DNA from: a virus
Virus record (IMG/VR): IMGVR_UViG_3300049001_000080
Location: 38,446-102,445 of that record
Direction: 5' to 3' (one strand)
Length of the DNA stretch: 64,000 nt
Positions 1,990-38,592 of this stretch are shown here, one piece after another (position 1 is the stretch's first letter; every line of letters starts with the position of its first letter). The notes under the pieces are model-generated. The model saw only the letters and a program-made list of their open reading frames with translations, made no database searches and was not told the DNA's origin. The position numbers and the translations under genes are program-made.

Positions 1990-3257
1990 CGGTCCGCCCC
2001 CGGTCGCGCCCCGGCGTAGGGCGCGGACACCATCACGGCGTCGGAGACCGCGCGCCCGCGCATGATGGCCTCGGGGTCGGCGATGGCCCGGTCCGGGGTG
2101 AGGTCGACCGGGCGCCCGTCCGCCGCGGTGACCCGCTCGTAGTCGACGGCCGAGATGACCGCGCCCTGGGTGGACTGAGTGTACGCGGTGACCGACTGGA
2201 TGTCGGAGTTGTAGGACCACGCCTCGCCCTGGTAGGCCGTGAACGCCGGGCGCGCCCGGTCGACGGGCGTGGCGGAGGCCTGCGGGTAGTACGCCGCCAG
2301 CGACGGCCTCGGCACCACCCGGGTCCGGACCTCCCAGTACGTGGAGCTGGCCGACGCGTCGCGGATGTGGGCCGGCGAGTGGACCGCCACCCCCTGGGCG
2401 TCGACGGTGAGCAGCGCGCCGGCCGGCTTGAGCCGGTCCAGCACGCGGGTCAGCCGGTACGCCTCCTCCAGCGTCATCGACCGCAGCGGACGGACCACGA
2501 ACTCGGCCCGGTTGGACGTGGTGGTCCGACCGAATGACCCGGTGCCGCCCTCGACGTCGGCGTAGGTGCCGCCGTCCATCGCCCCGTAGGTGACGAAGTG
2601 GGTCTCCACCTCGCCGTAGGTCCGCCCCGCCACCGCCGGTGGGGCGCCGCCAGGGTTGCCGCCGCCGTTCTCGTCGACCAGCGCCCAGGTCTCGTAGACG
2701 CGGCAGTCGACGCTCAGCAGCGCGCGGGCCACCGCGGCCATGCCGGCCGGCGTGCCCGCCATCGGGATGGCGCGCGAGAACTCGCTCACCCGCGACCGGT
2801 AGGCGGCGTCCCTCGCGTCCAGCTCGGCCCACTGCTCGGAGGTCGCGGCCTCGGTGTAGGGCGACAGGTCGAGCCGCTCGCCGGACAGGCGGGGGAAGCC
2901 CAGCAGCGCGCCGTAAAGGCGGTCCAGGTCCAGGTACCTCGTCGTGCTGACGACCGACCCCATGTGCGCGACCAGGTAGCGGCGCCGGAGCTGGCCGGCG
3001 CCGGAGTCGCCGAGCACGGCCTTGAGCAGCCGCGAGAGGTGCGACTCCGGCCGCGTGTCGTAGAGGTCGGGGAACAGGTGCGCGAGCTGCTCGGCCGAGG
3101 GCCGCGCCGGCAGCAGCGGGTCGGTGGTCGTGTCCAGCCGGGTCGAGCGCGGCGCGCCGCTGGTGGGCGCCTGGAGGGCCAGCAGCACGGCGTCCTGGAG
3201 GTACCGCCCGCCCGCGCCCTGGTCGAGCGCGGCCGGGTCGCCGTCGAGGGAGGCCAT
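1986..3257 (-). CDS. Baseplate protein, gpI-like by position
   Basis: 423 residues. ATG at 3257 overlaps the stop of the J gene as ATGA; the longer upstream frame is rejected because it would lie inside J. The N-terminal third is helical (LFPDLYDTRPESHLSRLL region) and the rest is beta-rich. In contractile phages the gene after J usually encodes a wedge or tail protein that works with it (P2 gpI, Mu gp48). That assignment rests on gene order; I could not recognise the family from sequence. No hydrolase motif is seen. Cytoplasmic assembly into the baseplate is expected. Confidence 0.85.
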   Translation of the reverse strand: MASLDGDPAALDQGAGGRYLQDAVLLALQAPTSGAPRSTRLDTTTDPLLPARPSAEQLAHLFPDLYDTRPESHLSRLLKAVLGDSGAGQLRRRYLVAHMGSVVSTTRYLDLDRLYGALLGFPRLSGERLDLSPYTEAATSEQWAELDARDAAYRSRVSEFSRAIPMAGTPAGMAAVARALLSVDCRVYETWALVDENGGGNPGGAPPAVAGRTYGEVETHFVTYGAMDGGTYADVEGGTGSFGRTTTSNRAEFVVRPLRSMTLEEAYRLTRVLDRLKPAGALLTVDAQGVAVHSPAHIRDASASSTYWEVRTRVVPRPSLAAYYPQASATPVDRARPAFTAYQGEAWSYNSDIQSVTAYTQSTQGAVISAVDYERVTAADGRPVDLTPDRAIADPEAIMRGRAVSDAVMVSAPYAGARPGADR

Positions 3258-6034
3258 CAGGACACGCCGAACGAGTTGGCGGCCTTGGCCACGTAGTTGA
3301 TCGAGTAGAGCGCGGGCACCTCGTTGTCGCCGAGCTGCACGTCCGCGGCCCGGGCCGGCGAGGACCCGGCGGTGATGAAGGAGATGCGGGTCCCGGCCGC
3401 GTCCACCCGCTCGATGGCGTAGGCGCCGCCGGTGGTCGGCTCGGCGCTGGTGAGGAGCCGGATGTTGTCCACGCCCGTCACCTCGTGCGCGACCTGGATG
3501 ACGTCGGACACCTGCACGGGCGAGCCGAAGTCCTTCGCCGCGAGGAAGACGGCCAGGGAGGCCTGGAGCGCGGTGGCCACCTGGGCCGGGTCGTAGCCGG
3601 GGACGAACATGATCGCGAAGTTCAGCCGCAGTAGCACGCGCTTGGCGGCGTGGGCCCGCACGTCGGTCGCGACCAGTCGCCACCGCTCGACCCGCTCCTG
3701 GACGTCGCGTGGGATGGCGTTGTAGGAGTACTGGAGCGACGCGGCGGCGTTGTTCGCCGGGTGGTGGGCGGCCAGCCACTCCAGCCCGAACAGCGACCGC
3801 GGGCTGTACCCGTACGCCGTGTCGTCGTGGACGACCCAGTAGTCGGTGCCCTTGACGTAGGTGTTCCCGCCGATGATCAGCGGGGAGGGGAAGACGTCGA
3901 TCGGGCCGAACGCGAGCTGCATGAAGATGTTGGCCGCGGTCGGGTGCGTGGAGACGGTGCCCTGGCGGACGAACTTGCCGGTGAACAGCGCGTCGGTCGA
4001 GCCCGACGTGAACACCCGGGCGGTCCGCATGTACGTCGTCTCGCTGGCGTCGACCGGCCGGTCCCCGTCCACCCAGACGTCCACCCGGTTGGTGATCCCG
4101 GCGGCCGGGTCGTTCCTGCTGGCCGAGCTGTTGTACTCGAAGTCGAGGTCGTAGATCGCCCCGTCGGTCAGGCCCACGCCGATCGTGTGCACCTCGGGCG
4201 GGATCACGGTGGCGTCGAACGAGTTACCTGTGAAGTAGGTCCGACCGCCTCGGCGAGCCAGGAAGGTGCCGTTCCGAGTGGTGGGACACCAGATCGGTCC
4301 TGCGTAATGACGCAGGCTCTTCTTCATGGGGGCGACGCTTACGTGGCGTACCTTTTTAATGTTGACGTGATGCATCTGTACGCGGCCAAATGGAGTGTCA
4401 AGGACCTTACGGCCTTGGCGTGTCGGGAGGCCAACTAGTGCGCAAAGTGCCTGGAATACATCTGCCTGATCGGCACTCGCAGTGCAGAAATACCGAGTAC
4501 CCGTGCCTGCCCCTCTGACCCCTCCTCCTTGCATTCCCCCGTCACCCTTGATCAAGGTGTCGATCAACATCTCGCGCTGATGGACAGGTAGGACTGAGAT
4601 CAGCTCGTAGGTCAGCTTCTTGTCGGGCAAGGCTGATCGGACTTGCCGGGCTAGTTCACGTGAAAAGGCAAAGATCGTGATGTCGTCGTCGATGTAGGTC
4701 TGATACGGATGCCCCAGCCTCTTGAGGAGGAGTCGGATCTCCTCCACCTTCTCAGGATTGGCGAGGTGACTCTGTCCGATTTTGACTCGAAGCTTCCTTG
4801 GCTGCGAGTCGAAGGAGCCGTCGCTAGCGACCCACCCCAGTAGTCGTACAAAATCATCGGTATAAATAGATTCGATGGACTCTTCGAGGGGAGCCGTAAC
4901 CACGATGCCGTCCGACGGCCGCAAGTCATGAGTCTCTCGTAGTATGGCGGGCTGGCTCGTGCGAATCCGGTGAGCGTTTGTGACCGGCCAACGGTGGTTC
5001 GTCGTCACCAAGGCCGAGATGGACCTCCCCTCCATCGATACGAGGGGCTCGTCTACTTCCGCTCGGTAAAGATCTGTCACCGGCGTCCATTCAGCGACGC
5101 CGCGATCCAGATTCAAGGAGAGAATCTCATCGCCGATCTGGATCTGTCGATGGTCTACCCAGCCACTGTGTGACAGGGCCTGCGTGTTTTTGTCCACGCA
5201 GTAATGTACCCCCAGGGTTAGGATCTGGCCGGCATCGAGGTCGGCGCCCAGGGCCGGGTTGTCGGCGTAGATGTAGGTCGCGCTGGTGGCGGGGATGGAG
5301 CTGGTCGCGTCGCCGGACCCGTCGATCTGGACCTGCTCGCGCCAGTGCGAGGAGGAGCCGATCACCCTGGCCCGGGTGGCCACCCCGTCGTCGGTGGTGT
5401 CGGGGGTGCTGTCCTCCAGCGAGAGGCCCAGGAACATGTCCTCGGTGCCGGCCAGGCTGCGGAACACCGTCCGCTTGAACCGGTCGATGAGCGCGAGGTC
5501 GTCCTCGGAGCTGGTGCCGCCGGTCGTGGGCGAGGAGTTGGTCACGCTGGCGACCCCGCTGGCCGGCGAGGCGAGCCTGACCAGGGTGTTGGCCGCGAGG
5601 TTCCCGGACTGGCCCCCGACGATCGCCTGCACCGGGACGTCCACGCTCGACACCCCGCGCTGGAGGATCGCGGGAGAGACGGTCGCGAACACAGCGGGGA
5701 CCGAGGTGGCCGTGGTGACCTGGGTGCCGGCGGCGATCGGGTAGTCCTGGTCGGCCGGCGTCGGGCGGGCGAACGTGACGACCCCGGTGCCGCGCTGCGC
5801 GGCGAACCTGGTGAAGCCGAACACGGCCACGAAGTCGTCGAGGTCGGCGCCGCGCTTGGAGTCGATGTCGAGCTGGTAGTTCAGCAGGTGCTGGTCGACG
5901 TACGCGGCGGCCACCGACTCGGCCACCACGTCGAGGATCTTGCGCACCGGCGTGCCGACCGAGGTGTCCAGCTCGGGCTCGGAGACGGCCAGGGCCGCGA
6001 CCATCTGGGCGGCGACGTCGGCGGCGCTGGCCAT
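3257..6034 (-). CDS. Baseplate J-like wedge protein, interrupted by an intein
   Basis: 925-residue precursor starting MASAADVAAQM, in ATGA overlap with the gp25-like gene. Exteins (residues 1-278 and 605-925, about 599 residues after splicing) have the J-family layout: N-terminal helix, a VDQHLLNYQLDID segment, a beta-rich core with the ARPTPADQDYPIAAGTQV stretch (residues 90-107), and a C-terminal part with VQVSDVIQVAHEVTGVDNI. J proteins form wedges around the hub. Residues 279-604 are an intein with its own entry, and its lower GC stands out against the exteins. The spliced junction joins LGVHY to SFDAT. Loss of splicing would be expected to block baseplate assembly. Confidence 0.93.
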   Translation of the reverse strand: MASAADVAAQMVAALAVSEPELDTSVGTPVRKILDVVAESVAAAYVDQHLLNYQLDIDSKRGADLDDFVAVFGFTRFAAQRGTGVVTFARPTPADQDYPIAAGTQVTTATSVPAVFATVSPAILQRGVSSVDVPVQAIVGGQSGNLAANTLVRLASPASGVASVTNSSPTTGGTSSEDDLALIDRFKRTVFRSLAGTEDMFLGLSLEDSTPDTTDDGVATRARVIGSSSHWREQVQIDGSGDATSSIPATSATYIYADNPALGADLDAGQILTLGVHYCVDKNTQALSHSGWVDHRQIQIGDEILSLNLDRGVAEWTPVTDLYRAEVDEPLVSMEGRSISALVTTNHRWPVTNAHRIRTSQPAILRETHDLRPSDGIVVTAPLEESIESIYTDDFVRLLGWVASDGSFDSQPRKLRVKIGQSHLANPEKVEEIRLLLKRLGHPYQTYIDDDITIFAFSRELARQVRSALPDKKLTYELISVLPVHQREMLIDTLIKGDGGMQGGGVRGAGTGTRYFCTASADQADVFQALCALVGLPTRQGRKVLDTPFGRVQMHHVNIKKVRHVSVAPMKKSLRHYAGPIWCPTTRNGTFLARRGGRTYFTGNSFDATVIPPEVHTIGVGLTDGAIYDLDFEYNSSASRNDPAAGITNRVDVWVDGDRPVDASETTYMRTARVFTSGSTDALFTGKFVRQGTVSTHPTAANIFMQLAFGPIDVFPSPLIIGGNTYVKGTDYWVVHDDTAYGYSPRSLFGLEWLAAHHPANNAAASLQYSYNAIPRDVQERVERWRLVATDVRAHAAKRVLLRLNFAIMFVPGYDPAQVATALQASLAVFLAAKDFGSPVQVSDVIQVAHEVTGVDNIRLLTSAEPTTGGAYAIERVDAAGTRISFITAGSSPARAADVQLGDNEVPALYSINYVAKAANSFGVS
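4223..5200 (-). other. Intein with LAGLIDADG homing endonuclease in the J protein
   Basis: 326 codons in frame with the host gene, residues 279-604. Splicing signatures: Cys at position 1 (CVDKNTQALS), block B TTNHR at about position 67, a C-terminal WCPTTRNGTFLARR stretch, and terminal YFTGN followed by Ser as the +1 nucleophile. The penultimate residue is Gly instead of the usual His, a known but less common variant. Two LAGLIDADG-type helices are visible: LLGWVASDGSF (about 120-130) and LIDTLIKGDGG (about 213-223). Base composition is visibly more AT-rich than the flanks, consistent with recent gain. Homing into uninterrupted J alleles is inferred from the endonuclease motifs. Confidence 0.92.
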
Positions 6035-28342: not shown

Positions 28343-28611
28343 GCCACGCCCAGCATCGTCAAGCGCTGTGTGTAGGAGAGCTGGTTAAGGATGTCCGATA
28401 GCTCTGTTGCCCACGCCACTACGTCTGCCTCGTACTGGTCGTCTGATCCTAGGACAGGAGGGAACGGCGCGTAATCGTCCTCGACGTTGAGGTCGTCGAT
28501 CCAGACGTGCATCGGTCCTCCAGCCTCGTGCCTGGAGTAGATCATCCGGATCAGGAGTCGGCCTCGTTCGATATCCCGCGCTGCGGTCGTGCTGTCCGCT
28601 GGCTCGCTCAC
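28339..28611 (-). CDS. Unknown small protein
   Basis: 90 residues from GTG 28611, GTGA overlap with the methyltransferase-like gene. It begins VSEPADSTTAARDIERG, then LLIRMIYSRHEAGGPMHVWIDDLNVEDDY, an acidic mid-part and a helical end (VVAWATELSDILNQLSYTQRL). No family recognised. Confidence 0.7.
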   Translation of the reverse strand: MSEPADSTTAARDIERGRLLIRMIYSRHEAGGPMHVWIDDLNVEDDYAPFPPVLGSDDQYEADVVAWATELSDILNQLSYTQRLTMLGVA

Positions 28612-29279
28612 GCGGCCACCTCCAGCGTCGCCATGAGCCGGGAGCCGACCCACTCGGTGTAGGCGGGAGGGATCGCCTGGGCAAGCTCGATGTTGGTCAT
28701 CCAGTCGATGCCCATCGCCGCGACCCGCTCGGCCTTCGCCCCGTTGTACTCGCCCCTCGGGGCCGTACCCCCCCCGCCGTGCCCGTAGACGCCCACCGAG
28801 GCGTCGGTGTGATCGCACGGCCCCGGGGCGGCCAGGGTGAGGCTGGACTCGAACAGGCGGTGCCTGCGGAGCTGCCTGTGGACCCCGTCGGAGCAGGTGG
28901 TGCCCAGCCCGAACATCGACCCGCACAGCACCAGCGGGTCGCGCAGCGGGGCGCCCGGGACGTTCTCGATCACCCACGGCAGGCCCGAGCGCTCGAACAG
29001 GTGCCGGGTCGCCGCGACCAGCCAGCCGGTCCCGTGCTCGGGCCACATCGCGCGGAACCTGCCGTGGTCGTGGCAGGGCGGCGAGCCGACGACCACGTCG
29101 AACCGCCCGGAGGCGAGCAGCTCCGCGCCCACCTCCAGCGCGTCACCCCGCACGAACTCGAAGGGGTACCGGGGCTGCGGCGCGATGTCCACGCCCACCA
29201 CGTCGAAGCCGGCCCGGTGGTAGCCGGCGGACGCCCCGCCGGCCTTGCAGAACAGATCGAGGGCTCGACGGCGGGTCAT
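28608..29279 (-). CDS. Compact cytosine-C5 DNA methyltransferase-like protein
   Basis: 223 residues, ATGA overlap with the upstream methyltransferase. Motif I is ALDLFCKAGGASAGYHRAGF then VVGVDI; motif IV is VVGSPPCHDHGRF with the catalytic Pro-Cys but His where Gln is usual; motif VI is WVIENVPG; the C-terminus has IPPAYTEWVG as a motif X equivalent. It is shorter than typical Dcm enzymes and lacks an obvious target-recognition region, like several phage relatives. It presumably modifies cytosine in DNA using S-adenosylmethionine; specificity unknown. It is paralogous to the gene at 30247-30941. Confidence 0.82.
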   Translation of the reverse strand: MTRRRALDLFCKAGGASAGYHRAGFDVVGVDIAPQPRYPFEFVRGDALEVGAELLASGRFDVVVGSPPCHDHGRFRAMWPEHGTGWLVAATRHLFERSGLPWVIENVPGAPLRDPLVLCGSMFGLGTTCSDGVHRQLRRHRLFESSLTLAAPGPCDHTDASVGVYGHGGGGTAPRGEYNGAKAERVAAMGIDWMTNIELAQAIPPAYTEWVGSRLMATLEVAA

Positions 29280-30250
29280 GATGTCGCTCCGGTACACACC
29301 AAGACCGCCCCAGCCATCAGCGGGGGGATCGCGTTGCCGATCTGACGGAAGCGCGAGGCGACCGGACCACACCAAGGGTGGCCAGGAGGGAGGCTCTGGA
29401 GAGTGGCCGCCTCCTCGATGGTGAGTCGAACCTGGCTGTGCGCGGCCCGGTCGGTGGGCCGTGGCACCCAGGTCGACTCCGCGATCCGCTCTCGCCACCA
29501 GGCACGACGCCAGGACGAGCCGACCAGCACGTCCGCCCCCGCCTGCCGGCCACGGGCCGTCAACACCGTCGGGGCGGGCGCGTCGGACAGCCCCCACCCG
29601 ATCGCCTCGGCCATGCTGATCCACCTCGGAAACGCGGCGTCTACGGGTCCGCCTCGACCGTTGTACGCGGCGTGGGTGGCTGCGGGTAGCTCGGCTTCAC
29701 CGTGTAGCCGAGCTACTAGTACAGCTCGCTTGCGGGCCTGAGGCACGCCGAACTGCTCAGCGGATAGCACGCCCGTAGCGGTGGAGTAGCCTCGCCCCGT
29801 CAGCACGGCCGCGATGGCCTCCCAGATCGGCAGGACACTCGGCACCTGTTCCAGCGCGACCCACTCTGGCTGGGTGGTCAACGCCCAGCGGAGCGGCTCC
29901 AGCACCAGCGCGGTGCGCGGGTCATCGGTGGCCGCGACCTCCTCGGCCGGCCACTCCCCGGTGTCGAGCCGCTTGATCGCCTGCACCACCAGGTCGAGCT
30001 GTCGCTGCCCGCTACGTAGGCCACCCTCACTAAAGGTCTGGCACGGCGCGCTGGCGATCAGGCCTCGTGCCAGGATCGGCTCGACCTCACGCACGTCGGC
30101 CTGGAGGGTGTCTAGCCCGGCTGCAAGCCTAGTCGCCACACAGTCGGGGTCCGTCTCCACGCCCAGCACCCGCAGGCCGAGCCCTCGGGCAGCGAGAGAC
30201 CATCCACCTGCCCCGCCCGAGAACAGGTCTACAGCGTCGTACGCGCTCAC
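29276..30250 (-). CDS. Cytosine-C5 DNA methyltransferase (Dcm-type)
   Basis: 324 residues, start MSAYDAVDLFSGGAGG. All key motifs are visible: I (DLFSGGAGGWSLAARGLG), IV (SAPCQTFSEGG with catalytic Cys), VI (ALEQVPSV), VIII (QARKRAVLVAR), IX (RLTIEEAATLQSLP) and X (RQIGNAIPPLMAG). A short target-recognition region lies between VIII and IX (WISMAEAIGWG to TWVPRP). Such enzymes transfer methyl to C5 of cytosine and usually protect phage DNA from host restriction. It is the middle gene of three. Confidence 0.92.
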   Translation of the reverse strand: MSAYDAVDLFSGGAGGWSLAARGLGLRVLGVETDPDCVATRLAAGLDTLQADVREVEPILARGLIASAPCQTFSEGGLRSGQRQLDLVVQAIKRLDTGEWPAEEVAATDDPRTALVLEPLRWALTTQPEWVALEQVPSVLPIWEAIAAVLTGRGYSTATGVLSAEQFGVPQARKRAVLVARLHGEAELPAATHAAYNGRGGPVDAAFPRWISMAEAIGWGLSDAPAPTVLTARGRQAGADVLVGSSWRRAWWRERIAESTWVPRPTDRAAHSQVRLTIEEAATLQSLPPGHPWCGPVASRFRQIGNAIPPLMAGAVLVCTGATS

Positions 30251-30941
30251 GCTGCGGCCTCAAGAGCCCGCATGACCTGTCCCCCGACGTAGCGGGTGTA
30301 CTCGGGCGGGATCGCCTCGCACACCTCGCGGATGCCGACGCGGGTGCGCTCGAAGTCGGCGTCCTCCGGGATGGCCAGCCAGGGCAGGCCCATGACCTCG
30401 GCCGCTGCCCGCTGCCAGGCGCGAGAGTGCTTGCCGCCGTGGACCGACATGAACTGGCCGTCTCGCGGGAGGTAGCCGTTGCGCGCGCAGCGGGCGACGT
30501 GCGCGGGCAGGGCAGGCCGTGTGATCGGGACGGACGACTCGAACCCCCGGTGCCGGTAGACGCGGAGGTCAAACATGGACCCGCAGAGGACGACGGGGTC
30601 CAGCAGCGGGGCCTGCGTGACGTTCTCGATCACGTACGGCACGCCGCTCGCCCTGAGCAGCTCGCGTACCGGGGCCACGAGGTCGGGGTAGGTGTGCCGG
30701 TTGTAGGCGTTCAGCAGGCTGTACGACTGGCACGGAGGGCTGGCGTGGATGAGGTCGAACGTCCTGAGGAAGGGCAGGTCGGCCAGCACCGTCATCGCGT
30801 CGGCCTGGATGAACTCGTGTGGGTAGCGCGGCTGAGGGTCGATGTCGACGCCCACGACCTGGAGCCCGGCGAGCTGGTAGCCACGGGACGCACCCCCCCG
30901 CAGCAGAACAGGTCGAGCACCTTAGGGCGGGTCAGCGGCAT
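30247..30941 (-). CDS. Compact cytosine-C5 methyltransferase, frameshifted in a G tract
   Basis: The natural start is ATG 30941 (AAGGAG upstream): PLTRPKVLDLFCC, the beginning of motif I. A run of seven G then puts the continuation out of frame; eight would give GGGASRGYQLAGLQVVGVDI and join the rest. Downstream, motif IV (HASPPCQSYSLLN), VI (YVIENVTQA) and a C-terminal AIPPEYTRYVG are intact to the stop. As written, only a form starting at GTG 30855 could be made, which lacks motif I and should not bind AdoMet. Either a sequencing error, a dead gene, or a phase-variable switch. Confidence 0.75.
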
Positions 30942-31010
30942 GGGGTCTCCTTCTGGCGGGTTCCCAAGAGCGTAGCGCCTGCGCGCTGTCTAGTGGCAGG
31001 GAAGTCTAAC
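30942..31010 (-). promoter_or_regulatory. Leader and probable promoter of the methyltransferase operon
   Basis: The minus strand has GCTACGCT (TACGCT at 30969-30974) as a -10 candidate and GGGAACCCGCCAGAAGGAG as leader before ATG 30941. The -35 is unclear (TAGACA lies at a spacing of only 12). The leader matches those at 22.65 and 63.72 kb. Confidence 0.4.
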
Positions 31011-31035
31011 TCACGAGGCCGCCTTCGCCTCGTCC

Positions 31036-31311
31036 TCATCGACCTTCCTCTGCCTGACGGATGGCGATCCTGCCGCCCGTCCATGCCTCCGGGTCGATCG
31101 GCTTCACCCACAGGATGCCGCCCTCGACCTCGACGGCCCAGACCTCGACCGCGATGCCGGTGCTGGCGAGGCGCGTGACGTAGTAGTAGGACCGCCCCAG
31201 GTCGGTCACGCTGGTCGAGGCGCTCTCGATCGAGGCGACGTCGGGGTGGTCCTCCCGGATGGTCGCGACGACGCCGAGGTCTGGTCGGTAGGGGCTGCCG
31301 TACCACCCCAT
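31036..31311 (-). CDS. Small protein after the multi-HTH nuclease
   Basis: 91 residues, ATG 31311 in ATGA overlap with the nuclease gene. Begins GWYGSPYRPDLGVVATIRED; rest is a beta-rich small domain (SYYYVTRLASTGIAVEVWAVEVEGGILWVKPID). Coupled translation suggests it is co-produced with the nuclease, possibly as an accessory subunit or inhibitor; nothing in the sequence proves this. Confidence 0.75.
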   Translation of the reverse strand: MGWYGSPYRPDLGVVATIREDHPDVASIESASTSVTDLGRSYYYVTRLASTGIAVEVWAVEVEGGILWVKPIDPEAWTGGRIAIRQAEEGR

Positions 31312-32858
31312 CACAGACCCCGGGGGTCGTCGGCGTAGGACCGCAACAACGCGACGAAGGCGGCGCGGGTCGGGGTCGCTGACACCTCCAGCAGGCGACC
31401 GCGATCTGCTACGGCGAGCGCTCCCCGCTCCTGGCGGAATGCCGCCCACTGCTGGAGGTTGTGCGCCTTGACCTCACCTTTGATCTCTACTGGGAGGTCG
31501 CCCTCGGGGGTGGATACGACGAAGTCGGGGCCGTACAGGTGTCCGTCGTAGGCCACCTCTCCGTCCGCTTGACGGTCGTACCTGCGCACGACCGCCTTGC
31601 GGAGGGTGCACGCCGAGACGAACGCGGCCTCGTAGGAGGACTCGTGGTAGACCCCGTTGATGTAGCCGGTGCTCTCACTGGCAGGGAGGCTCTTGAGGTG
31701 CGTCCGAGCGCACTCCTCGTGGTACTTGCGCGGCTGACTCTTCCGGTGCCGGATGTCGCCGTCACCCGCCGCGCAGGGGGTGGTCGTCCAGTTGGCCGGG
31801 TCCTCCTCGCGCTTCTTCCCGTACCGATCCCGGCACTCGGGGTGGTAGCTGCGGCTCTTGCTCCCCGTCCATCCGCCGCACGGGCAGAGCTGGCCGCGTA
31901 GGTCGTCCAGCACCTCACCGAAGCGGCCCTCTGCCGTCACCCCGCCCTGAGCCAGCAGGCGCCGGACGGTGTAGAAGTCGGCGTGCGCCCGCTTGGCGAT
32001 CTCGCTGATCCCGACCCCCTCGCCGTACATCTTGACGACCTCGGCGACGCGCTCAGGAGAGTCGGGGGAGGATCGCGCCGGGGAGCCAGCCTCCCGCAGC
32101 CACCGGTACAGGCTGCTCGGCGTGACCCCGACGTCCTGGGCGACCGCCACCGGCTCCTCCCCTCGGGCGATGCGTTCGACGGCCTCTTTGGTGCGGGGGT
32201 GAGGCGGGCGCCCCGGCTGCGACCGGTGATCTTCTGTCGAGTGGCTCGCGAACGATGTCGGGTACAGCGGCCTCACGCCGCTGTCGCGCAGCCACTTCTC
32301 GATGGTGCCGCGGTTCACCAGCTCGTCGAGTGCCTGGCGGATCTGCTCGGTGTCCTTGCCCTGCCCGTGCAGCTCCAGCACCCGGGCGAGGTTTCGGTCT
32401 CGCTTCGCCGGAGGCTTCCCTCCCGGCGGCTTGCGCTGGACCCCCTGCTCGCCGGCCCAGCGCTGGACGGTGCGCTCGGAGACGTGGTAGCGGGCGGCGA
32501 TCTCTCCGACGGGGTGGCCGTCGCGGTAGAGAGCCACCGCCTCGTCTGCGACTCGATCTACCGGGTTCGCGGTGGCCAGGCCCATCTCGCGCATCCAGCG
32601 GTGGACCGTATGGATCGGCTCGCCGATCGTGCCGGCGATCTTGGAGGGGCCGTCCCCCCGGGAGTTCAGCTCGCGGATCTGGTCCTCGAAGCCTGATCGA
32701 CGGCTCTTGACCCCCGCCCTCTGCCCCCGGCCGTTAGCCCTGACGATCTCCCGGACGAGGTAGCCGGGGACCCCGACCTTGAGCGCGATGGCGTTCGCTG
32801 GCTCCCCCAGGTCGTGCAGGCGCAGGACCTCGGGGGTGCGATCTGAGGTATCATGCAT
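31311..32858 (-). CDS. Multi-HTH, double zinc-ribbon, PD-(D/E)XK nuclease
   Basis: 515 residues from ATG 32858. Residues 1-340 hold about five to six tandem helix-turn-helix units (for example EVLRLHDLGEPANAIALKVG, ALYRDGHPVGEIAARYHVSE, VARGEEPVAVAQDVGVTPSSLYRWL-type repeats, VVKMYGEGVGISEIAKRA). Residues 345-425 have two Cys/His zinc modules (LCPCGGW to HPEC; TPCAAGDG to HEEC). The C-terminal 90 residues carry a PD-(D/E)XK core: GPDFVVSTPEGD, PVEIKGEV, then Q in LQQWAAFRQE. The layout (many DNA readers plus one nuclease) suits a homing or rare-cutting endonuclease. It lies beside a duplicated piece of the capsid gene. Confidence 0.85.
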   Translation of the reverse strand: MHDTSDRTPEVLRLHDLGEPANAIALKVGVPGYLVREIVRANGRGQRAGVKSRRSGFEDQIRELNSRGDGPSKIAGTIGEPIHTVHRWMREMGLATANPVDRVADEAVALYRDGHPVGEIAARYHVSERTVQRWAGEQGVQRKPPGGKPPAKRDRNLARVLELHGQGKDTEQIRQALDELVNRGTIEKWLRDSGVRPLYPTSFASHSTEDHRSQPGRPPHPRTKEAVERIARGEEPVAVAQDVGVTPSSLYRWLREAGSPARSSPDSPERVAEVVKMYGEGVGISEIAKRAHADFYTVRRLLAQGGVTAEGRFGEVLDDLRGQLCPCGGWTGSKSRSYHPECRDRYGKKREEDPANWTTTPCAAGDGDIRHRKSQPRKYHEECARTHLKSLPASESTGYINGVYHESSYEAAFVSACTLRKAVVRRYDRQADGEVAYDGHLYGPDFVVSTPEGDLPVEIKGEVKAHNLQQWAAFRQERGALAVADRGRLLEVSATPTRAAFVALLRSYADDPRGL

Positions 32859-32915
32859 GGTAGGGAGCCCTTCATCATGGTGGTCCGACAACCTCCATGG
32901 TACGGGCTCCCTACC
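32859..32915. promoter_or_regulatory. 12-bp inverted repeat abutting the nuclease start codon
   Basis: GGTAGGGAGCCC (32859-32870) and GGGCTCCCTACC (32904-32915) are perfect mates, loop 33. On the plus strand TTTTT follows, so it may end antisense transcription. On the minus strand the 3' arm touches ATG 32858, so the hairpin could hide the nuclease start and limit its translation. The loop contains GGAGG and a 7-codon ORF. Confidence 0.6.
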
Positions 32916-32955
32916 TTTTTGGCAAAAACACGCTGTAACTAAGTGCCACGAAGAC

Positions 32956-32997
32956 CATCTCGTCGAACACCCAGCCCTTCCAGAAGCTCTCCAGGCC
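32956..32997. repeat. Copy of the major capsid gene 3' region
   Basis: 31 identical bases (32956-32986 versus 33135-33165), then two mismatches and CTCCAGG again. On the minus strand it encodes LESFWKGWVFDEM, the same residues as the capsid C-terminal segment, then diverges (VFVALSYSV) and stops. It is a remnant of a second capsid end next to the nuclease gene. Confidence 0.85.
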
Positions 32998-33007
32998 CTC
33001 CACGCAG

Positions 33008-33059
33008 CACTAAGCCCACATCTCAACCCCGTTCAGGAGGGTGAGCTGCGGGCTTAGTG
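33008..33059 (-). terminator. Hairpin after the capsid gene
   Basis: CACTAAGCCC (33008-33017) and GGGCTTAGTG (33050-33059) pair perfectly, loop 32, 9 bases past the capsid stop. Likely a terminator or processing hairpin that limits read-through into the nuclease gene. Confidence 0.6.
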
Positions 33060-33068
33060 AGAGGTATG

Positions 33069-34079
33069 TCAGCCCGTGTAGGTTGATTTCGTCACAGTGG
33101 CGATTCCACGTGGGTTCAAGATCGCCATCGAGATCATCTCGTCGAACACCCAGCCCTTCCAGAAGGACTCCAGGCGGTTGTTCTCCTCGACGTCCAGGCT
33201 GTAGAGGACGGGGAAGACGCCCAGGAACTGGGGGTCCGGCAGCAGGAACGCCTTGCCCTGCGGCACCATCACCGACCGCTGGACCTGGAACTCGCCGAAC
33301 GTGGTGATCTTCTGGCCGGCCACCACGCGGTCCTTGAACGCCCAGCCCGTGGTGTTCTGGTCGAACAGGTAGAAGTCCCGGTAGTCGGCCGGGCTCAGCA
33401 GCAGCCTGGCCGCCTCGATCTCGCGCAGGTCCGTCATGGTCACGGCGGCGTAGAGCGCGGCCGGCGTGATGCCGCCCGAGGCGATGGTGACGTTCTGCGC
33501 GCCCGGCGTGGGGTTGTCCGCCCGGGTCGCGTAGTCGGTGACCGCGGCCTGGAGCAGGACCATCAGCCGCGCGTCCTCCTGCTTGAGGATCGACTGCTTG
33601 GTCTCGTCCTGGGCCTGCTCGACCATGTTGACGCGGAAGGAGTAGAGGTCCTCCTTGCGCATCGCCGGGAAGCTCGCGAGGCGGAAGAAGTCCACCCGCA
33701 CGCGCTTGCCCTCGAAGGGCGTGACGCGGACCTCGCCGTCGTGCCCGGACAGGACGTACGACTGGCCGAGGTCGTCGAACACCTCGTAGGTGACCTCGGT
33801 GCCGGGCACGACCGGGTCCTCGATCAGGACGTTGCGGATCATGCCCTGGTACCGGAGCTTGAGCTGGATCGGGCCGATCATGCCGACGCCCAGGCGCTGG
33901 ATGCCGTTGACCGAGTCGCTCAGGATCAGGGCGAGCTTCTGCTGCTTCTCGGCGCTGCTGAGCCGGGTGACGACCAGGTCGTCGCCCTCGCGCCGGGCGT
34001 GCTTGAGGTACGCGTCGACGTAGTCGTCGGACCGCCGCGCGGGCTTCCGGAGTCCACCCGCCAGGACGGGGAGTGTCAT
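33069..34079 (-). CDS. Major capsid protein
   Basis: 336 residues, MTLPVLAGGLRKPARR. The order (after a protease/scaffold gene and a decoration-like gene) and the sequence fit an HK97-fold coat: helical N-arm (VDAYLKHARREGDD), a long spine helix region (DLYSFRVNMVEQAQDETKQSILKQEDARLMVLLQAAV), P-domain strands (FQVQRSVMVPQGKAFLLPDPQFLGVFPVLYSLDV) and a conserved tail (FWKGWVFDEMISMAILNPRGIATV). It assembles into the icosahedral shell. Part of its 3' end is duplicated at 32956-32997. Confidence 0.9.
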   Translation of the reverse strand: MTLPVLAGGLRKPARRSDDYVDAYLKHARREGDDLVVTRLSSAEKQQKLALILSDSVNGIQRLGVGMIGPIQLKLRYQGMIRNVLIEDPVVPGTEVTYEVFDDLGQSYVLSGHDGEVRVTPFEGKRVRVDFFRLASFPAMRKEDLYSFRVNMVEQAQDETKQSILKQEDARLMVLLQAAVTDYATRADNPTPGAQNVTIASGGITPAALYAAVTMTDLREIEAARLLLSPADYRDFYLFDQNTTGWAFKDRVVAGQKITTFGEFQVQRSVMVPQGKAFLLPDPQFLGVFPVLYSLDVEENNRLESFWKGWVFDEMISMAILNPRGIATVTKSTYTG

Positions 34080-34119
34080 CGGTCTCTTCCTCTCGGGTGC
34101 TCGGCCGGCCCGCGGACGG

Positions 34120-34629
34120 TCAGGCGTCGATGGCGGCGAGGCCGCCGATGGTGAGCTTGGTGGCGGACACCTTGAGCACCTTGGCCACCGGGTCGGTGCT
34201 GGCGTTGGCCGCGCCGTGCGGGATGAGCTGGCCGCGCTTGGACCCCGTGGTGCAGGCGTGCGCGAGCAGGAACGTGCCGTTGCCCGGGTCGGTCCAGGTC
34301 GCCGACGTGTCGAACGAGGGGGCCAGCACGTCGGCCTCGGCGTCGGGGCCCATGACCCAGACGGCGCAGGCGTTGACGCCAGCGTCGAGCAGCTCGTCGA
34401 TCGAGTCGCCGCCGATGTAGTTGCCGAAGAACCCGTACGGCACGCCGGTCCCGTTGATCAGCGTGACGTTGTCACCGGTGGTCTTCATGGCCACCATGCC
34501 GGGCCAGATGTTGACGCTGCGGTCCCAGGCCGGGTCCAGCAGCATCGACTTCGGCGTCTGCTGCGTCCACCCGTAGGTGGCTCGGTAGGGCCGCTTGATG
34601 TACGACCGAGAGATGCTGGTCTTGATCAA
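34120..34629 (-). CDS. Capsid decoration or minor head protein
   Basis: 169 residues, TTG start at 34629 (GAGAGGACG lies 5' of it). Beta-rich (VNIWPGMVAMKTTGDNVTLINGTGVPYGFFGNYIGG) with an ending AKVLKVSATKLTIGGLAAIDA, a pattern frequent in head decoration proteins, which sit between scaffold and coat genes. The plus-strand HNH gene starts 17 bases upstream, so this gene's original leader was probably replaced by that insertion; the TTG start and weak ribosome site may reflect it. Confidence 0.8.
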   Translation of the reverse strand: MIKTSISRSYIKRPYRATYGWTQQTPKSMLLDPAWDRSVNIWPGMVAMKTTGDNVTLINGTGVPYGFFGNYIGGDSIDELLDAGVNACAVWVMGPDAEADVLAPSFDTSATWTDPGNGTFLLAHACTTGSKRGQLIPHGAANASTDPVAKVLKVSATKLTIGGLAAIDA

Positions 34630-34646
34630 GGGGTATCGTCCTCTCT

Positions 34647-35435
34647 ATGACTCAGAACCAGTCCTGTGGATGTACTCCCGAGTGCCCGATCACGTGGGGT
34701 ACCTGCCACTGCGGATGTAGCACTCCGACTCGGATCGCACCCCAGAACAGCGCCGAACGAGGCTGGGTACGCGGCCAGCCGGTCCGCTACCGGAGAGGGC
34801 ATGCGCCACGGAATATCAACCACACACTCAGCGATCTCGACGAGACGAGACGGACCGCCACCTGCTCGCTCTGCGGCTCGGTCAGCATCAAGCGAAACGG
34901 GGCGAGCGGCTGGCGATGCCATCGCGGGATCATCGCTAAGCATCGGATCGTCGAGGTCGACGAGGAGGCCCGGACCGGCTACTGCCGGGCCTGCTCCAGT
35001 CGCGTCGACCTGCTGCGGCACACCCGGGACGGCTGGGTCTGTAAGCCGAACAAGGTCAAGACTGCCCAGGCCTGGCGCGATGCCAACATCGAGCGTCACC
35101 GTGAGATGAACCGCGCCTGGCGTGACGCCAACCGTGACCGCATTCGGAGCACCCATCTCGCGAAGAAATACGGCCTCACCGTCGAGCAGTACGAGGCGAT
35201 GATCGCCGGCCAGGGCGGCGTCTGTGCGGTCTGTCGTCAGCCACCGAGACCCGAGCACCGAGGCGGCATGCTGCACGTCGACCATGACCACGAGACCGGC
35301 GTCGTGCGTGGCGCGCTGTGCGCGAGCTGTAACCTGCTGCTCGGCCTGGCGGGTGACGCCGTCGAGGTCCTGAGGGGCGCGATCGAGTACCTGCTCCAGC
35401 ATCAGGACCTCCTCCCCGTTGCCCCGGCGGGGTGA
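34647..35435 (+). CDS. Endonuclease VII-like HNH protein, only plus-strand gene
   Basis: 262 residues, reading against every neighbour. Residues 1-130 hold several Cys pairs (CGCTPEC, CHCGC, CSLCG, YCRACSS), zinc-finger-like. Residues about 165-240 are an endonuclease VII domain: KKYGLTVEQYEAMIAGQGG, CAVCRQ, HVDHDHETG, GALCASCNLLLG, with the His-Asp-His core between two CxxC pairs. T4 endonuclease VII resolves branched DNA, while many phage relatives are free-standing homing enzymes. Lower GC and reverse orientation inside the head operon favour a mobile insertion. It ends before the strong hairpin at 35500-35543. Confidence 0.9.
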   Translation: MTQNQSCGCTPECPITWGTCHCGCSTPTRIAPQNSAERGWVRGQPVRYRRGHAPRNINHTLSDLDETRRTATCSLCGSVSIKRNGASGWRCHRGIIAKHRIVEVDEEARTGYCRACSSRVDLLRHTRDGWVCKPNKVKTAQAWRDANIERHREMNRAWRDANRDRIRSTHLAKKYGLTVEQYEAMIAGQGGVCAVCRQPPRPEHRGGMLHVDHDHETGVVRGALCASCNLLLGLAGDAVEVLRGAIEYLLQHQDLLPVAPAG

Positions 35436-35499
35436 CCCTTCCCGCTCACCCCTTGCGGTGCTGCCGGGTCGAGGACGGCAGGGTGCCTGGTGCAGAGGG

Positions 35500-35543
35500 C
35501 GCGCCGGGGCCGCCGTGTAGCCCGGCTGGGCGGCCCCGGCGCG
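35500..35543. terminator. 15-bp bidirectional hairpin terminator
   Basis: CGCGCCGGGGCCGCC (35500-35514) and GGCGGCCCCGGCGCG (35529-35543), perfect, loop 14. It lies between the convergent ends of the plus-strand HNH gene and the minus-strand protease/scaffold gene and could stop both. Confidence 0.8.
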
Positions 35544-35553
35544 TGACACCGCG

Positions 35554-36636
35554 CTACGCCAGGTCGAGGAACTCGGCCTGGACGACGGCGCCCGGTGACG
35601 CCGCCGCGACCTGCACGCCTGGCGTGCCGGCGACGCTCGGCATCGACCGCCCGCCACCTGCGGGCGTCGGCACGAGGTCGCGCCGCGCCGTCGAGGCCGC
35701 CGTGCGCCTGCCGGCGCCGAGCACGTCCTGGAGCGTCTGGGTGGCCGCCGCGACCACCTGCGGCGTGGCCGTCGCGTCGGCGACGATGGCCTGCGCCTCC
35801 TCCAGCTCGTCGCGCCGGGTGATGCCGGCCGCTCGACGAAGGCGGGCCAGGCCCAGCGCGGCGAAGAAGCGCGAGTCGGCCGAGCCGGTGGTCCAGCCCG
35901 TGTCGGTCATCGCCGGCTGGAGGTCGGGCGTCGTCAGCGTCTCGTTCTGCTGCGGCACGTGCGAGTCCTGCACCGGCGGCGGAGCCGAGATGTCCGCGGG
36001 CGTCGGGGCGGTGACGTCGGTGAGCTGGTTGAACGGCACCGCCGGCAGCGCCACGTCGGTGCTCTGGACGTCCGTGGTCGCGGCCGGGGTGACGCCCTGG
36101 TTGGCCGGTGCCGGCGCGGCACCGTAGGCCTGGGGGTCGTCGGTGGCCGCGGGCGCGAGCGCCTGCTCGTTGGTCGTCGGCACCGGGTCGCCCCGCTGGT
36201 CGCCGGCCGCGGTACGCCTGCTGGCCTCGTAGCCGGCGGTCCAGCCGTCCTTCCACGCGTCGTCGGCGCGGCCCCACTCGTCGGCCTTCGCCGCGGTGTC
36301 GAGCGCCGCGTGCTGCTGGTGGTCGAGGGCGCCCTGGCGCCGGCCGGCGTGGAAGCTGGCCGTGCGGGCGTCCTGGGGCGGGGCCAGGGCCGCGGCCTTT
36401 GGGTGCCCCGAGAGGCCGGCCAGATCGACGATGACGCCCAGCAGCCCCACCGCCCGGTCGAGCTGCGCGACCACCTGCTGCCCGACGCGCTCCTGCGCCG
36501 TCAGCCGCGCGCCCTGGGCCTCGATGAGGTTCTGCTGCGCCCGCATCGCCGCGAGGAGCCGCACCCGCTGCTCCCCCGCCGGGTTCTTGCCCTCACCCGC
36601 GCCGACCGCCTGGGTCCTACCCGTGCTCGTGCTCAT
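35554..36636 (-). CDS. Nested scaffold protein from internal in-frame start
   Basis: ATG 36636 is in frame with the protease gene (codon 653) and is preceded by GTAGGAG with 5-base spacing, one of the best ribosome sites in the window. It would give 360 residues: a helical scaffold core (VRLLAAMRAQQNLIEAQGARL, ERVGQQVVAQLDRAVGLLGVIVDLAG) and a long flexible tail. Lambda makes its scaffold Nu3 in this way from within protease gene C. Expression is inferred, not shown. Confidence 0.65.
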   Translation of the reverse strand: MSTSTGRTQAVGAGEGKNPAGEQRVRLLAAMRAQQNLIEAQGARLTAQERVGQQVVAQLDRAVGLLGVIVDLAGLSGHPKAAALAPPQDARTASFHAGRRQGALDHQQHAALDTAAKADEWGRADDAWKDGWTAGYEASRRTAAGDQRGDPVPTTNEQALAPAATDDPQAYGAAPAPANQGVTPAATTDVQSTDVALPAVPFNQLTDVTAPTPADISAPPPVQDSHVPQQNETLTTPDLQPAMTDTGWTTGSADSRFFAALGLARLRRAAGITRRDELEEAQAIVADATATPQVVAAATQTLQDVLGAGRRTAASTARRDLVPTPAGGGRSMPSVAGTPGVQVAAASPGAVVQAEFLDLA

Positions 36637-38592
36637 CCGTACTCCTACCCCTTCGGGATGCGCCGCCCCTGACGTGGCCAGGGGTGGCCGGTCGTCGTCC
36701 TCGTCCTGGTCGTCGTCGGGCTCGTCGTCCTCTTCCTCGTCGTCGCCCTCGTCGTCCAGGTCGTCTGGGTCCTCCTCGGCGTCGGCGGCCGGGTCCTCCG
36801 CGCCGTCGTCGCCCTCCTGGTCGAGGCCTCGGGCCATCTCCAGGTCGGGGTCGGTGAACTGGTCGGGCGGCGCGACGTACCCGCACACCTGGCACTGGTC
36901 GCCGTCGAACGTCTCGGTGTCCCCGCAGATGGGGCAGTCCTCGGGGCGCAGGGTGTCGACCTTGGCGGGGGCGACCTGCTCGCCGTACCCGAGGCGCGCC
37001 GAGCCGGAGTGGTAGCCGGGCCCGTGCAGCTCGGGGTAGTGCTCGTGCGACCACTGGTCCCACCTCTCGCGGTCGTGCCCGCGGTTGGTGCGGCGGCCCT
37101 TGTCGAGCTGGTCGCTGTCGGCGTTGGCGTCGTCCTCCTGGACGTTCTCGCGCTGGCGCACCAGCCAGGTCGTCGCCTGCACCTGGTGCGGCTCCACCGG
37201 GTGGCCCTCGGTCTCGGAGATCCGGCGGGCGGCCTCGTGGTAGGCCGCCACGACGTGGCCGTAGTAGTGCCGGTTGTCGAGCGGCGCCTTGTCCAGGTCG
37301 TGCGCGCCGAACCTCTTGCCGGCGGCCACCGACATGGCGTGCCGGTCGATGACGGCGCGGGGGTGCGCGGGGTCGGCGTCGCCGCCGTGCTCGATGAGGT
37401 GGGCGAAGTCCTGGATCTTCGGGCCCTTGAGCACGTCCTGGTGGTGCTCGCCGTCGATGATCCGCTGCGCCTGGCCCTTCATCGAGCCGGTGGCGAAGAC
37501 GCCGGAGCCCGGCCCGCCCAGGGCGGTGCCGGTGTGCAGCGACCGGGCGGCGTTGAACATGTTGACCGGCCACGCGGTCTGCGGGGAGTAGGCGGCCAGC
37601 ACCCCGGCGCCCTTGTGCGCGTCGCCGTGCGCGATGGCCTTGGCCACGATGTGCGCGTCGCCGTACCAGCGCTTGCCCTGCTCGCGCTCGTCGGGCGTCG
37701 CCCGGCCCCAGTGCGCCACGATGTGGTCGGCGTGCACGGGGTTGGCCTGGAAGAAGGGGTGGTCGCCCGGGTCGGCGTGGCGCGGAGCGGCCTCGGCCTG
37801 GAGGGCGGCTGCCTCGTCTAGGCGCTCGCCCGGCTGTGTGGCTTCCCGCCGGCTCGCGGTCGCTACCAGACGAGTGGAGGCGTGGGGCTCACGCTCCAAC
37901 GAGCTGGTCGTCCTCGTGGGGGCGTCGAGCCCGCGGGCGTCCACGCCGACGACGTGCGCCGTCGGATCGGCGGGCTGCTCGACCAGCAGGCTGTTCTCGA
38001 AGAAGCCGAGGCCGTAGCAGACCTCGCTGACGAGCACGGCCTCGCGCCGGCCGGAGGCGGCCCGGCGGGTTACGCGCTGGCCCTTCATCGTCTTGACGTG
38101 CGCGCAGTACTCCAGCGGGGTCTCGGCGCGGTTGCCGCAGAACGAGCACAGCGAGTACTCGACGTTCGCGCCCATGCTGGTCCGGTCGACCTCCTCCTTG
38201 AGGATCGCGGCGGCCAGCTTCGGGAATCGGACGGCGTCGACCTCCATGAGGGCCTCGACCCACACGTCCGGCGACCCGTCGGGGTTGACGTCCTCGTGCA
38301 GGGCGGCGTCCACCACCACGCCGCGGGCGCGACGCGGGTTGGCGTTCGCGTGGTTGACGAATACCGGCTTGCCGATGAAGGTGCGCCAGGCCTTCTTGAT
38401 CTCCGCAGCCGGGAACGTGTCGTAGTTGTCGTTCGTCCGGCTACTTATCGCCCTGGAGCGGACATACAGGAATCCGGGGCGCGGCTCGTAGGCGAAGGCG
38501 TGCCTGTGCCCGGTGACCAGCAGGCGGGGGTGGTCGGGGCGGCTCACCAGCGTGCTGGACAGCACGCGCATCCGGGCGTAGCGCTGGATCAC
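35554..38592 (-). CDS. Prohead protease-scaffold fusion with an inserted enzyme-like domain
   Basis: 1012 residues, GTG 38592. Domains: 1-230 capsid maturation protease (FVNHANANP with His81, DRTSMGANVE with Ser139, then CSFC and CAH); about 277-480 an inserted domain (HPFFQANPVHADH, RWYGDAHIVAKAIAHGD, VLAAYSPQTAWPVNMFNAAR) that looks like a stand-alone enzyme or DNA-binding fold; a CPIC/CQVC zinc ribbon (about 555-567); an Asp/Glu tract (590-640); a helical scaffold-like region from 653 on, with its own internal start; and a Pro/Thr-rich tail. The protease would trim coat and scaffold; the acidic linker and helices would drive shell assembly. The job of the inserted domain is unknown. Confidence 0.9.
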   Translation of the reverse strand: MIQRYARMRVLSSTLVSRPDHPRLLVTGHRHAFAYEPRPGFLYVRSRAISSRTNDNYDTFPAAEIKKAWRTFIGKPVFVNHANANPRRARGVVVDAALHEDVNPDGSPDVWVEALMEVDAVRFPKLAAAILKEEVDRTSMGANVEYSLCSFCGNRAETPLEYCAHVKTMKGQRVTRRAASGRREAVLVSEVCYGLGFFENSLLVEQPADPTAHVVGVDARGLDAPTRTTSSLEREPHASTRLVATASRREATQPGERLDEAAALQAEAAPRHADPGDHPFFQANPVHADHIVAHWGRATPDEREQGKRWYGDAHIVAKAIAHGDAHKGAGVLAAYSPQTAWPVNMFNAARSLHTGTALGGPGSGVFATGSMKGQAQRIIDGEHHQDVLKGPKIQDFAHLIEHGGDADPAHPRAVIDRHAMSVAAGKRFGAHDLDKAPLDNRHYYGHVVAAYHEAARRISETEGHPVEPHQVQATTWLVRQRENVQEDDANADSDQLDKGRRTNRGHDRERWDQWSHEHYPELHGPGYHSGSARLGYGEQVAPAKVDTLRPEDCPICGDTETFDGDQCQVCGYVAPPDQFTDPDLEMARGLDQEGDDGAEDPAADAEEDPDDLDDEGDDEEEDDEPDDDQDEDDDRPPLATSGAAHPEGVGVRMSTSTGRTQAVGAGEGKNPAGEQRVRLLAAMRAQQNLIEAQGARLTAQERVGQQVVAQLDRAVGLLGVIVDLAGLSGHPKAAALAPPQDARTASFHAGRRQGALDHQQHAALDTAAKADEWGRADDAWKDGWTAGYEASRRTAAGDQRGDPVPTTNEQALAPAATDDPQAYGAAPAPANQGVTPAATTDVQSTDVALPAVPFNQLTDVTAPTPADISAPPPVQDSHVPQQNETLTTPDLQPAMTDTGWTTGSADSRFFAALGLARLRRAAGITRRDELEEAQAIVADATATPQVVAAATQTLQDVLGAGRRTAASTARRDLVPTPAGGGRSMPSVAGTPGVQVAAASPGAVVQAEFLDLA

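Follow-up and report, generated by a model that had tools for sequence, protein, structure and literature searches.

A copied capsid gene segment is a candidate operator of a predicted homing endonuclease gene in a phage genome

A diverged copy of a capsid gene segment lies upstream of a nuclease gene

In a stretch of 64,000 nucleotides of viral DNA (hereafter the window; positions 38,446 to 102,445 of the IMG/VR record IMGVR_UViG_3300049001_000080), we found that the spacer between the major capsid gene and a nuclease gene contains a 52-nt copy of the part of the capsid gene that encodes FWKGWVFDEM. On balance, we favour the reading that the nuclease is a capsid-gene homing endonuclease and that its recognition sequence has been captured as an operator of its own predicted promoter. 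In relatives, copies of the same segment recur in both orientations, are associated with the nuclease and are mostly placed at predicted promoters, and the insertion point of the element is visible in one pair of phages.

All of these features are on the minus strand. The capsid gene (34079 to 33069) is followed by a stem-loop (33059 to 33008), the copy (32996 to 32945), a promoter-like site (32925 to 32897), a predicted hairpin (32915 to 32859) and the nuclease gene (32858 to 31311). The capsid gene is intact and encodes 336 aa that match PHROG 2522, major head protein (E = 6e-96). We found 215 phage records with a match over at least 80% of this query, and the family is the head protein of Ceeclamvirinae and their relatives. 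The stem-loop directly after the capsid stop, seen as inverted repeat I8 and by folding, is terminator-like and has no T-run; a consensus scan found no terminator-like site at 33008 to 33059. We found no match to group I or II introns or any other intron family up to an E value of 5 in 30800–35600, and the reading frame of the capsid gene is uninterrupted, which together argue against a group I or II intron; a known RNA family was likewise rejected for want of a match.

The initial annotation had reported that 32956–32986 is identical to 33135–33165 and encodes the same FWKGWVFDEM residues. We found that this 31-base identity is exact, that the copy does cover these codons and that the full similarity is longer, with 46 of 52 positions identical (88%) between 32945–32996 and 33124–33175. 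The match of the copy to its own capsid gene beats each of 200 first-order (Markov) shuffles of the spacer, and against a capsid profile the copy scores 66.7 bits, compared to a maximum of 21.9 bits in shuffles (530 shuffles, 106 spacers). Translated on the minus strand in the capsid frame, the copy reads VEGLESFWKGWVFDEMVFVAL and then SYSVFLPKR followed by a stop; the description of the sequence beyond the match as nonsense is therefore incorrect for the first approximately four further residues, which are capsid-like, and correct after them. The segment had also been called a second capsid 3′ end, which is wrong. It contains the FWKGWVFDEM codons and a few neighbours, the last 16 capsid codons are absent, and no part of the capsid tail LNPRGIATVTKSTYTG and its stop is present in the translation. 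A tandem duplication of the whole capsid 3′ end is ruled out because the copy is without the tail. A 30-mer of the repeat is the capsid haplotype in 22 of the 93 capsid genes that encode the motif exactly (including that of the window), and because this haplotype is common, the 31-base identity gives no date for the copy. Recent copying from the window's own capsid gene, as could be argued from the 31 identical bases, is thus not supported.

Chance or an assembly artefact is a very improbable source of the copy. The sequence comes from a metagenomic virus record (102445 bases) and the exact arrangement is found in one record only; however, the 46/52 identity is beyond all shuffles, the copy is diverged as a misassembled repeat would not be, and the same architecture recurs in independent records.

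The nuclease combines an HTH array with a putative PD-(D/E)XK domain

The nuclease gene (minus strand, 31311 to 32858) encodes 515 aa. Based on Pfam, profiles and an AF2 model, the predicted protein has six HTH units, a zinc-finger-like linker and a C-terminal PD-(D/E)XK-like domain. In Pfam, the matches are mostly to HTH domains. In the AF2 model (mean pLDDT 73), there are three-helix units at residues 8–41, 48–91, 99–137, 152–192, 221–256 and 268–304 and a C-terminal alpha/beta domain, which has a mean pLDDT of 82 when modelled alone. Structures that match this domain include VRR_NUC (Z 7.5), TnsA (6.9), Bax1 (6.2) and I-Bth0305I (5.9), with Hjc within the range of 5.8–7.5. All Z scores are below 8 and an unrelated mitoribosome protein reaches 7.0, so that the modelled fold taken alone is only suggestive of a nuclease. 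Profile matches were to T7 endonuclease I (E = 1.5e-4) and Bax1 (E = 6e-3). Across 12 sequences, E86, PDF at 120–122 and K136 are invariant and position 134 is E or D; we take the domain as PD-(D/E)XK with its putative catalytic residues kept. The family is named 'HNH endonuclease' or 'Holliday junction resolvase' in PHROG 1271 and in Bixzunavirus annotations; of these names, HNH appears to be a mislabel because the conserved residues are PD-(D/E)XK-like.

Relatives of the nuclease are found behind capsid genes

A direct search of viral contigs and phage records with the window nuclease found no relative, and relatives were obtained by whole-record search and by searches with nuclease alignments. 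Among capsid loci from virus contigs, 17 of 80 have a nuclease-profile match downstream of the capsid gene; the match is restricted to the N-terminal HTH part in L014, L073 and L080, and the nuclease gene is more than 500 nt from the capsid gene in L073, L078 and L080. In L078 and L073, several hundred bases with an apparent reverse-strand gene lie between the capsid stop and the nuclease-family member. When the searches used nuclease alignments and not the capsid, 38 of 41 loci (a list in which duplicates from one contig are marked) were behind a same-strand capsid gene; the exceptions were L214, which is without a nuclease-profile match, and L215 and L216, which are without a capsid. By contig name, 27 of these 41 loci were absent from the capsid searches, and 24 of the 27 are behind a capsid gene. 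Because the query nucleases were themselves found beside capsids, this dedication to the capsid is seen only within the reachable part of the family.

A tblastn search of named phages with the L057 nuclease matched 141 records, 137 of which are Mycobacterium phages. In 8 of 14 named phage regions there is a nuclease gene, always directly after the capsid gene. The named phages also form a decay series after the capsid gene: in Rabinovish (L218) the nuclease gene is frameshifted (2866–3802), in Tonenili (L223) it appears by eye to be reduced to its 3′ end (3553–3732), and in the spacer of Breeniome (L227; 3503–3666) a few codons of the nuclease 3′ end are left, again by eye. We looked for an empty-site twin of the window locus and found none. 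In the literature that we searched there was no printed account of the gene, and the cited part of PMC3029335 does not mention it.

Copies of the capsid segment are associated with the nuclease in both orientations

To quantify how often such copies occur, we scanned the 220 nt after the capsid stop with a profile of the capsid region, using the best of 530 shuffles as the threshold. The sample went from 185 loci with a capsid C-terminus to 110 once identical flanks were merged, then to 108 and to 106 with an adequate spacer; L002 and L116, which have no motif, were omitted from the profile, and near-copies remain among the 106 loci. We found a match in 11 of 36 nuclease-bearing loci (L177, a near-copy of L057, included) and in 1 of 70 nuclease-free loci (Fisher 2e-5). 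Lowering the threshold to the 99% level leaves the nuclease-bearing count at 11 of 36 and gives 4 of 70 for nuclease-free loci. The single nuclease-free match, in L040, falls within the ORF of an unrelated HTH gene and was kept in the count.

We also compared spacers with their own capsid genes. In this test, nuclease spacers of 50–250 nt (150 nt after the stop in nuclease-free loci) and capsid genes of at least 850 nt were compared with 60 shuffles, and the near-identical L177, L210 and L213 were omitted. The target segment beat the shuffles in 10 of 23 nuclease-bearing loci and in 2 of 70 nuclease-free loci (L066 and L152), and six other segments of the same capsid genes did so in 1 of 138 tests. 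The loci share kinship, and the copy counts from both scans are therefore counts of non-independent events. Presence of the segment in relatives that never carried the nuclease had been named in the initial annotation as evidence against its reading; by either test the segment is rare in nuclease-free relatives, which may include former carriers, and the outcome favours that reading. Its suggestion that the matched segment is the nuclease target is plausible from the resemblance of nuclease-bearing spacers to this capsid region, and we treat 33135–33165 (minus strand) as the likely recognition region. Because 13 of the 23 tested nuclease-bearing loci are without a copy, only part of the family would have such an operator.

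The copies extend from about the FWKG codons to the DEMV codons, some slightly beyond. They are direct in the window, L020, L026 and L185 and inverted in seven loci (L057, L031, L032, L038, L199, L197 and L182). The weakest copy is that of L182, where the profile scan and the own-capsid comparison pick different stretches of the spacer. The L185 copy is below the profile threshold, yet beyond all shuffles in both comparisons with its own capsid, and L020 passes the profile scan and fails the own-capsid test with 60 shuffles (p = 0.015 in the other own-capsid comparison). In Alice and L211 there are inverted near-matches that are not significant (p = 0.07 and 0.06) and are suggestive only.

In a nuclease tree (L177, L078, L073, L014 and the fragment L143 omitted), the two orientations are mixed, and well-supported (starred) branches force at least two changes of orientation. 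The direct L020, on a long branch, is inside a clade with three inverted loci (99/96). The window nuclease is on a very long branch and its position is unsure. L026 and L185 have short nucleases with no HTH array shown; of the proteins on the tree list, six are 385 aa or longer (L057, L031, the window, L020, L199 and L197), and all six are from loci with a target copy.

Copies are mostly placed at predicted promoters

In the window, the sole promoter-like site found in 32800–33120 is TTGCCA-17-TACCAT (minus strand, 32897 to 32925), compared to a mean of 0.0 sites (sd 0.2) in shuffles. The copy is upstream of this site and ends 19 nt before the predicted –35. In a survey of 30 spacers, with copy positions entered by hand from both copy scans, we found that the copy ends 1–19 nt before a predicted –35 in 7 of 12 copy-bearing loci (16 nt in L031, 4 in L032, 5 in L038, 10 in L199, 11 in L182 and 1 in Alice, in addition to the window). 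In L185 the copy covers the predicted promoter and in L020 it overlaps the promoter partially. No predicted site was found in copy-bearing L026, L057 and L197, with the start codon set too early in the L197 scan. A predicted site is present in 17 of the 30 spacers and absent from 13, three of which are copy-bearing.

The predicted –10 is either 6–8 nt (leaderless, 5 loci) or 32–38 nt (7 loci) from the start codon in 12 of the 17 spacers with a site; L014, L172, L206 and L207 do not fit this spacing, and in Alice the –10 is 5 nt before the annotated start, the start used in the scan being 30 nt inside the annotated gene. Promoter p values are 0.02–0.03 in the window and L038 and 0.08–0.28 in the remaining copy-bearing loci where a site is predicted. 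Because promoter scores at single loci are mostly not significant, the regular –10 spacing is the better argument.

Folding predicts a hairpin with a 12-bp outer stem (minus strand, 32859 to 32915) that would hide the ribosome-binding site of the nuclease gene in RNA that reads through from the capsid gene. The predicted folding energy of the read-through RNA is –39.5 kcal/mol (z –5.3). In the promoter transcript, with an assumed start, the 5′ arm of the hairpin is missing and the energy is –7.1 kcal/mol (z +0.8). When we folded five loci of the 32–38 nt class (the window, L031, L199, L067 and L051), all five had a strong ribosome-site hairpin in the read-through RNA only, the transcript start again being assumed for the promoter RNA.

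The element inserts near the end of the capsid gene in relatives

The Gordonia phages RedWattleHog and Stormageddon are alleles with and without the nuclease at a fixed site in the capsid gene, with 99.9% identity over 939 nt. The RedWattleHog capsid end is recoded from CTCAACGC for its last 36 nt (28 of 36 identical), and the nuclease gene follows. The final 21 nt of the capsid gene of Stormageddon are found exactly at the 3′ end of that nuclease gene, followed by 82 of 82 identical bases. A scan for tail remnants (31 loci scored; five nuclease genes that run off their contigs omitted) found two further cases, L067 and L143, with capsid-tail remnants at the nuclease 3′ end (29.8 and 28.5 bits; shuffle maximum 21.5). 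Behind the window nuclease, the displaced-tail match is not significant (DPRGL and a stop, p = 0.035 for one of the 31 loci scored). From these sequence comparisons, the element is seen to insert in the capsid gene of relatives at the NPRG codons, 20–30 bp beyond the putative recognition stretch. We read the nuclease family as one of capsid-gene homing endonucleases.

The window capsid gene is atypical at the same place as the recoded tail of RedWattleHog. From LNPRG on, 16 codons and the stop (minus strand, 33069 to 33119) use unusual codons; third-base GC (GC3) is 0.99 in the body of the gene and 0.65 in the 17 tail codons counted from an isoleucine (33122; binomial 9e-10). Across relatives, the change in GC3 from body to tail has a mean of –0.17 in carriers (36 loci) and –0.10 in others (72 loci; p = 0.005), the two distributions overlap, and low-GC3 tails are present in nuclease-free loci too. 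Among high-GC capsids we found no sharp border of recoding: third-base GC is lower in carriers at all seven codons from +60 to +78, and it is also lower at several upstream codons, such as –12 to –3, +9, +30, +39 and +48. At codon +9 (GGC of FWKG), third-base GC is 0.61 in 28 nuclease-bearing and 0.92 in 66 nuclease-free high-GC capsids, a difference that may reflect kinship or altered binding. We also considered whether silent changes in the FWKGWVFDEM codons make carriers resistant and rejected this, since nuclease-bearing (24) and nuclease-free (69) capsids differ from the consensus to a similar extent.

An insertion of this kind offers another origin for the copy, as the left flank of an earlier insertion in the capsid gene that has no function now, the intact recoded end having come from a later exchange. 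We regard this as the less likely reading, at somewhat better than one chance in four. The element does insert in the capsid gene in RedWattleHog, and direct copies are found in the window, L020 and L026. The L185 copy continues to CTCAACCC, up to the nuclease start codon, which are the LNP codons where the RedWattleHog element starts; either an insertion flank or an operator would account for this copy equally well. However, seven copies are inverted, and a flank cannot invert without a further inversion. RedWattleHog and L067, which have the clearest insertion scars, have no copy upstream of the nuclease. In addition, a comparison by eye of L031, L199 and L197 shows continued alignment through portions of the copy and onward to the –35, with greater divergence in the spacer before it. 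All copies other than that of L185 end before the NPRG insertion point, as would be expected for an operator that must not be cut. The part of the initial annotation that treated the segment as debris is thus probably wrong. Its proposal of homing or imprecise insertion at the capsid end holds in that a homing-type nuclease is there and relatives carry scars; it is not supported for the copy as a mere remainder of insertion, given the inverted copies, the placement mostly at predicted promoters and the copy-free RedWattleHog and L067. L185 suggests that a copy could originate as an insertion flank and be used later as an operator, although inverted copies need a further step.

A model for self-control of the nuclease and its relation to known systems

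Taken together, these data are explained most simply if the copy is the nuclease recognition sequence kept at the nuclease's own promoter, and the segment resembles a switch for self-control more than it resembles debris. In the model that we propose, the nuclease gene would be that of a free-standing homing endonuclease specialised for the major capsid gene at its 3′ end. The HTH array would most likely bind the conserved capsid FWKGWVFDEM codons, and the nuclease domain would most likely cut at the LNPRG codons, some 20–30 bp beyond the bound stretch. The element would insert at the cut and bring a recoded tail, leaving the capsid protein intact and the gene immune to further cutting. The copy would provide the recognition region without the cleavage position directly upstream of the nuclease promoter, where accumulating nuclease may bind and repress its own promoter, and the ribosome-site hairpin would block translation from capsid read-through RNA. 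A more general claim, which we hold tentatively and with a little less than even confidence, is that PD-(D/E)XK homing endonucleases with an HTH array or a zinc finger make up a large phage family, which is specialised on one capsid site, reconstructs the capsid tail whenever it inserts and has on repeated occasions taken up its recognition sequence, in either orientation, as the operator of its own promoter.

The copy might instead act outside transcription control, by titrating the nuclease off the phage's own capsid gene or by serving as a homology arm in repair. The window capsid gene retains the complete recognition stretch, and a carrier would therefore gain from diverting the enzyme; but one short site would sequester little enzyme, inverted copies could not work as homology arms, and the location beside the promoter is left unexplained. 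We consider such roles improbable.

The operator that we propose is like that of T4 I-TevI; according to the part of PMC2988022 that we cite, the I-TevI operator shares 15 of 20 positions with the homing site and overlaps the promoter. As described in that part, I-TevI shares with the window a site at the nuclease promoter that looks like the target (in the window, both the homing site and the promoter are predictions), a ribosome-site hairpin in read-through RNA only (again predicted in the window) and a DNA-binding part separate from the nuclease part. In contrast, I-TevI is intron-borne and GIY-YIG, and the window nuclease is free-standing after the capsid gene, PD-(D/E)XK-like and equipped with an HTH array. 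Here, copies are found in both orientations, most of them upstream of the promoter, and repression is a prediction of our model. If the model is correct, this control circuit arose in an unrelated family of free-standing nucleases, in both orientations, and copied segments of this kind could allow the DNA sites bound by homing endonucleases to be read from sequence data alone.

The insertions resemble fungal mitochondrial mobile ORFs (Allomyces atp6, Glomus), for which the cited part of PMC3630166 describes a replacement 3′ end with an endonuclease gene and the native 3′ end displaced downstream. RedWattleHog shows the same arrangement, as do L067 and L143 by the tail remnants at the nuclease 3′ end. 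Unlike the fungal elements, those here are in a bacteriophage capsid gene, have a PD-(D/E)XK fold match as compared to the LAGLIDADG of Glomus atp6 (PMC3630166, same part), and have the displaced capsid end fused in frame to the nuclease 3′ end.

Nuclease genes beside capsid genes are described elsewhere. Like the window nuclease gene, T4 segD is free-standing and adjoins the major capsid gene; it is GIY-YIG and antisense, with no promoter found according to the cited part of PMC2988022, whereas the window nuclease is on the same strand as the capsid gene and has a promoter-like site and a target copy. Of T5orf172 gene neighbourhoods, 31% include a capsid gene, according to the parts of PMC2988022 and PMC10448857 that we cite. 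In Bixzunavirus, the gene annotated 'Holliday junction resolvase' or 'HNH endonuclease' belongs by sequence to the same family and has the same place after the capsid gene, and capsid tails differ between alleles. Unlike the window nuclease, it has a zinc-finger-like N-terminus (by eye), and the Bixzunavirus spacers that we examined contain no significant target copy.

With the major capsid gene as its target, the nuclease could also act against co-infecting phages, an activity reported for the PhiPA3 endonuclease gp210 in the cited part of PMC11620839. The presence of the family in many Mycobacterium smegmatis phages and the Gordonia pair with and without the nuclease make these predictions testable in the laboratory.

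Other genes are found on both sides of this region of the window. A second nuclease gene of the Endonuclease VII family (PF02945; plus strand, 34647–35435) is just upstream of the decoration protein gene, so that the capsid and decoration pair is bracketed by two nuclease genes. Behind the nuclease gene (minus strand, 28608–30855) there are DNA methyltransferase-like frames in a row, two of which have no Pfam match and one of which is a C-5 cytosine methylase (PF00145).
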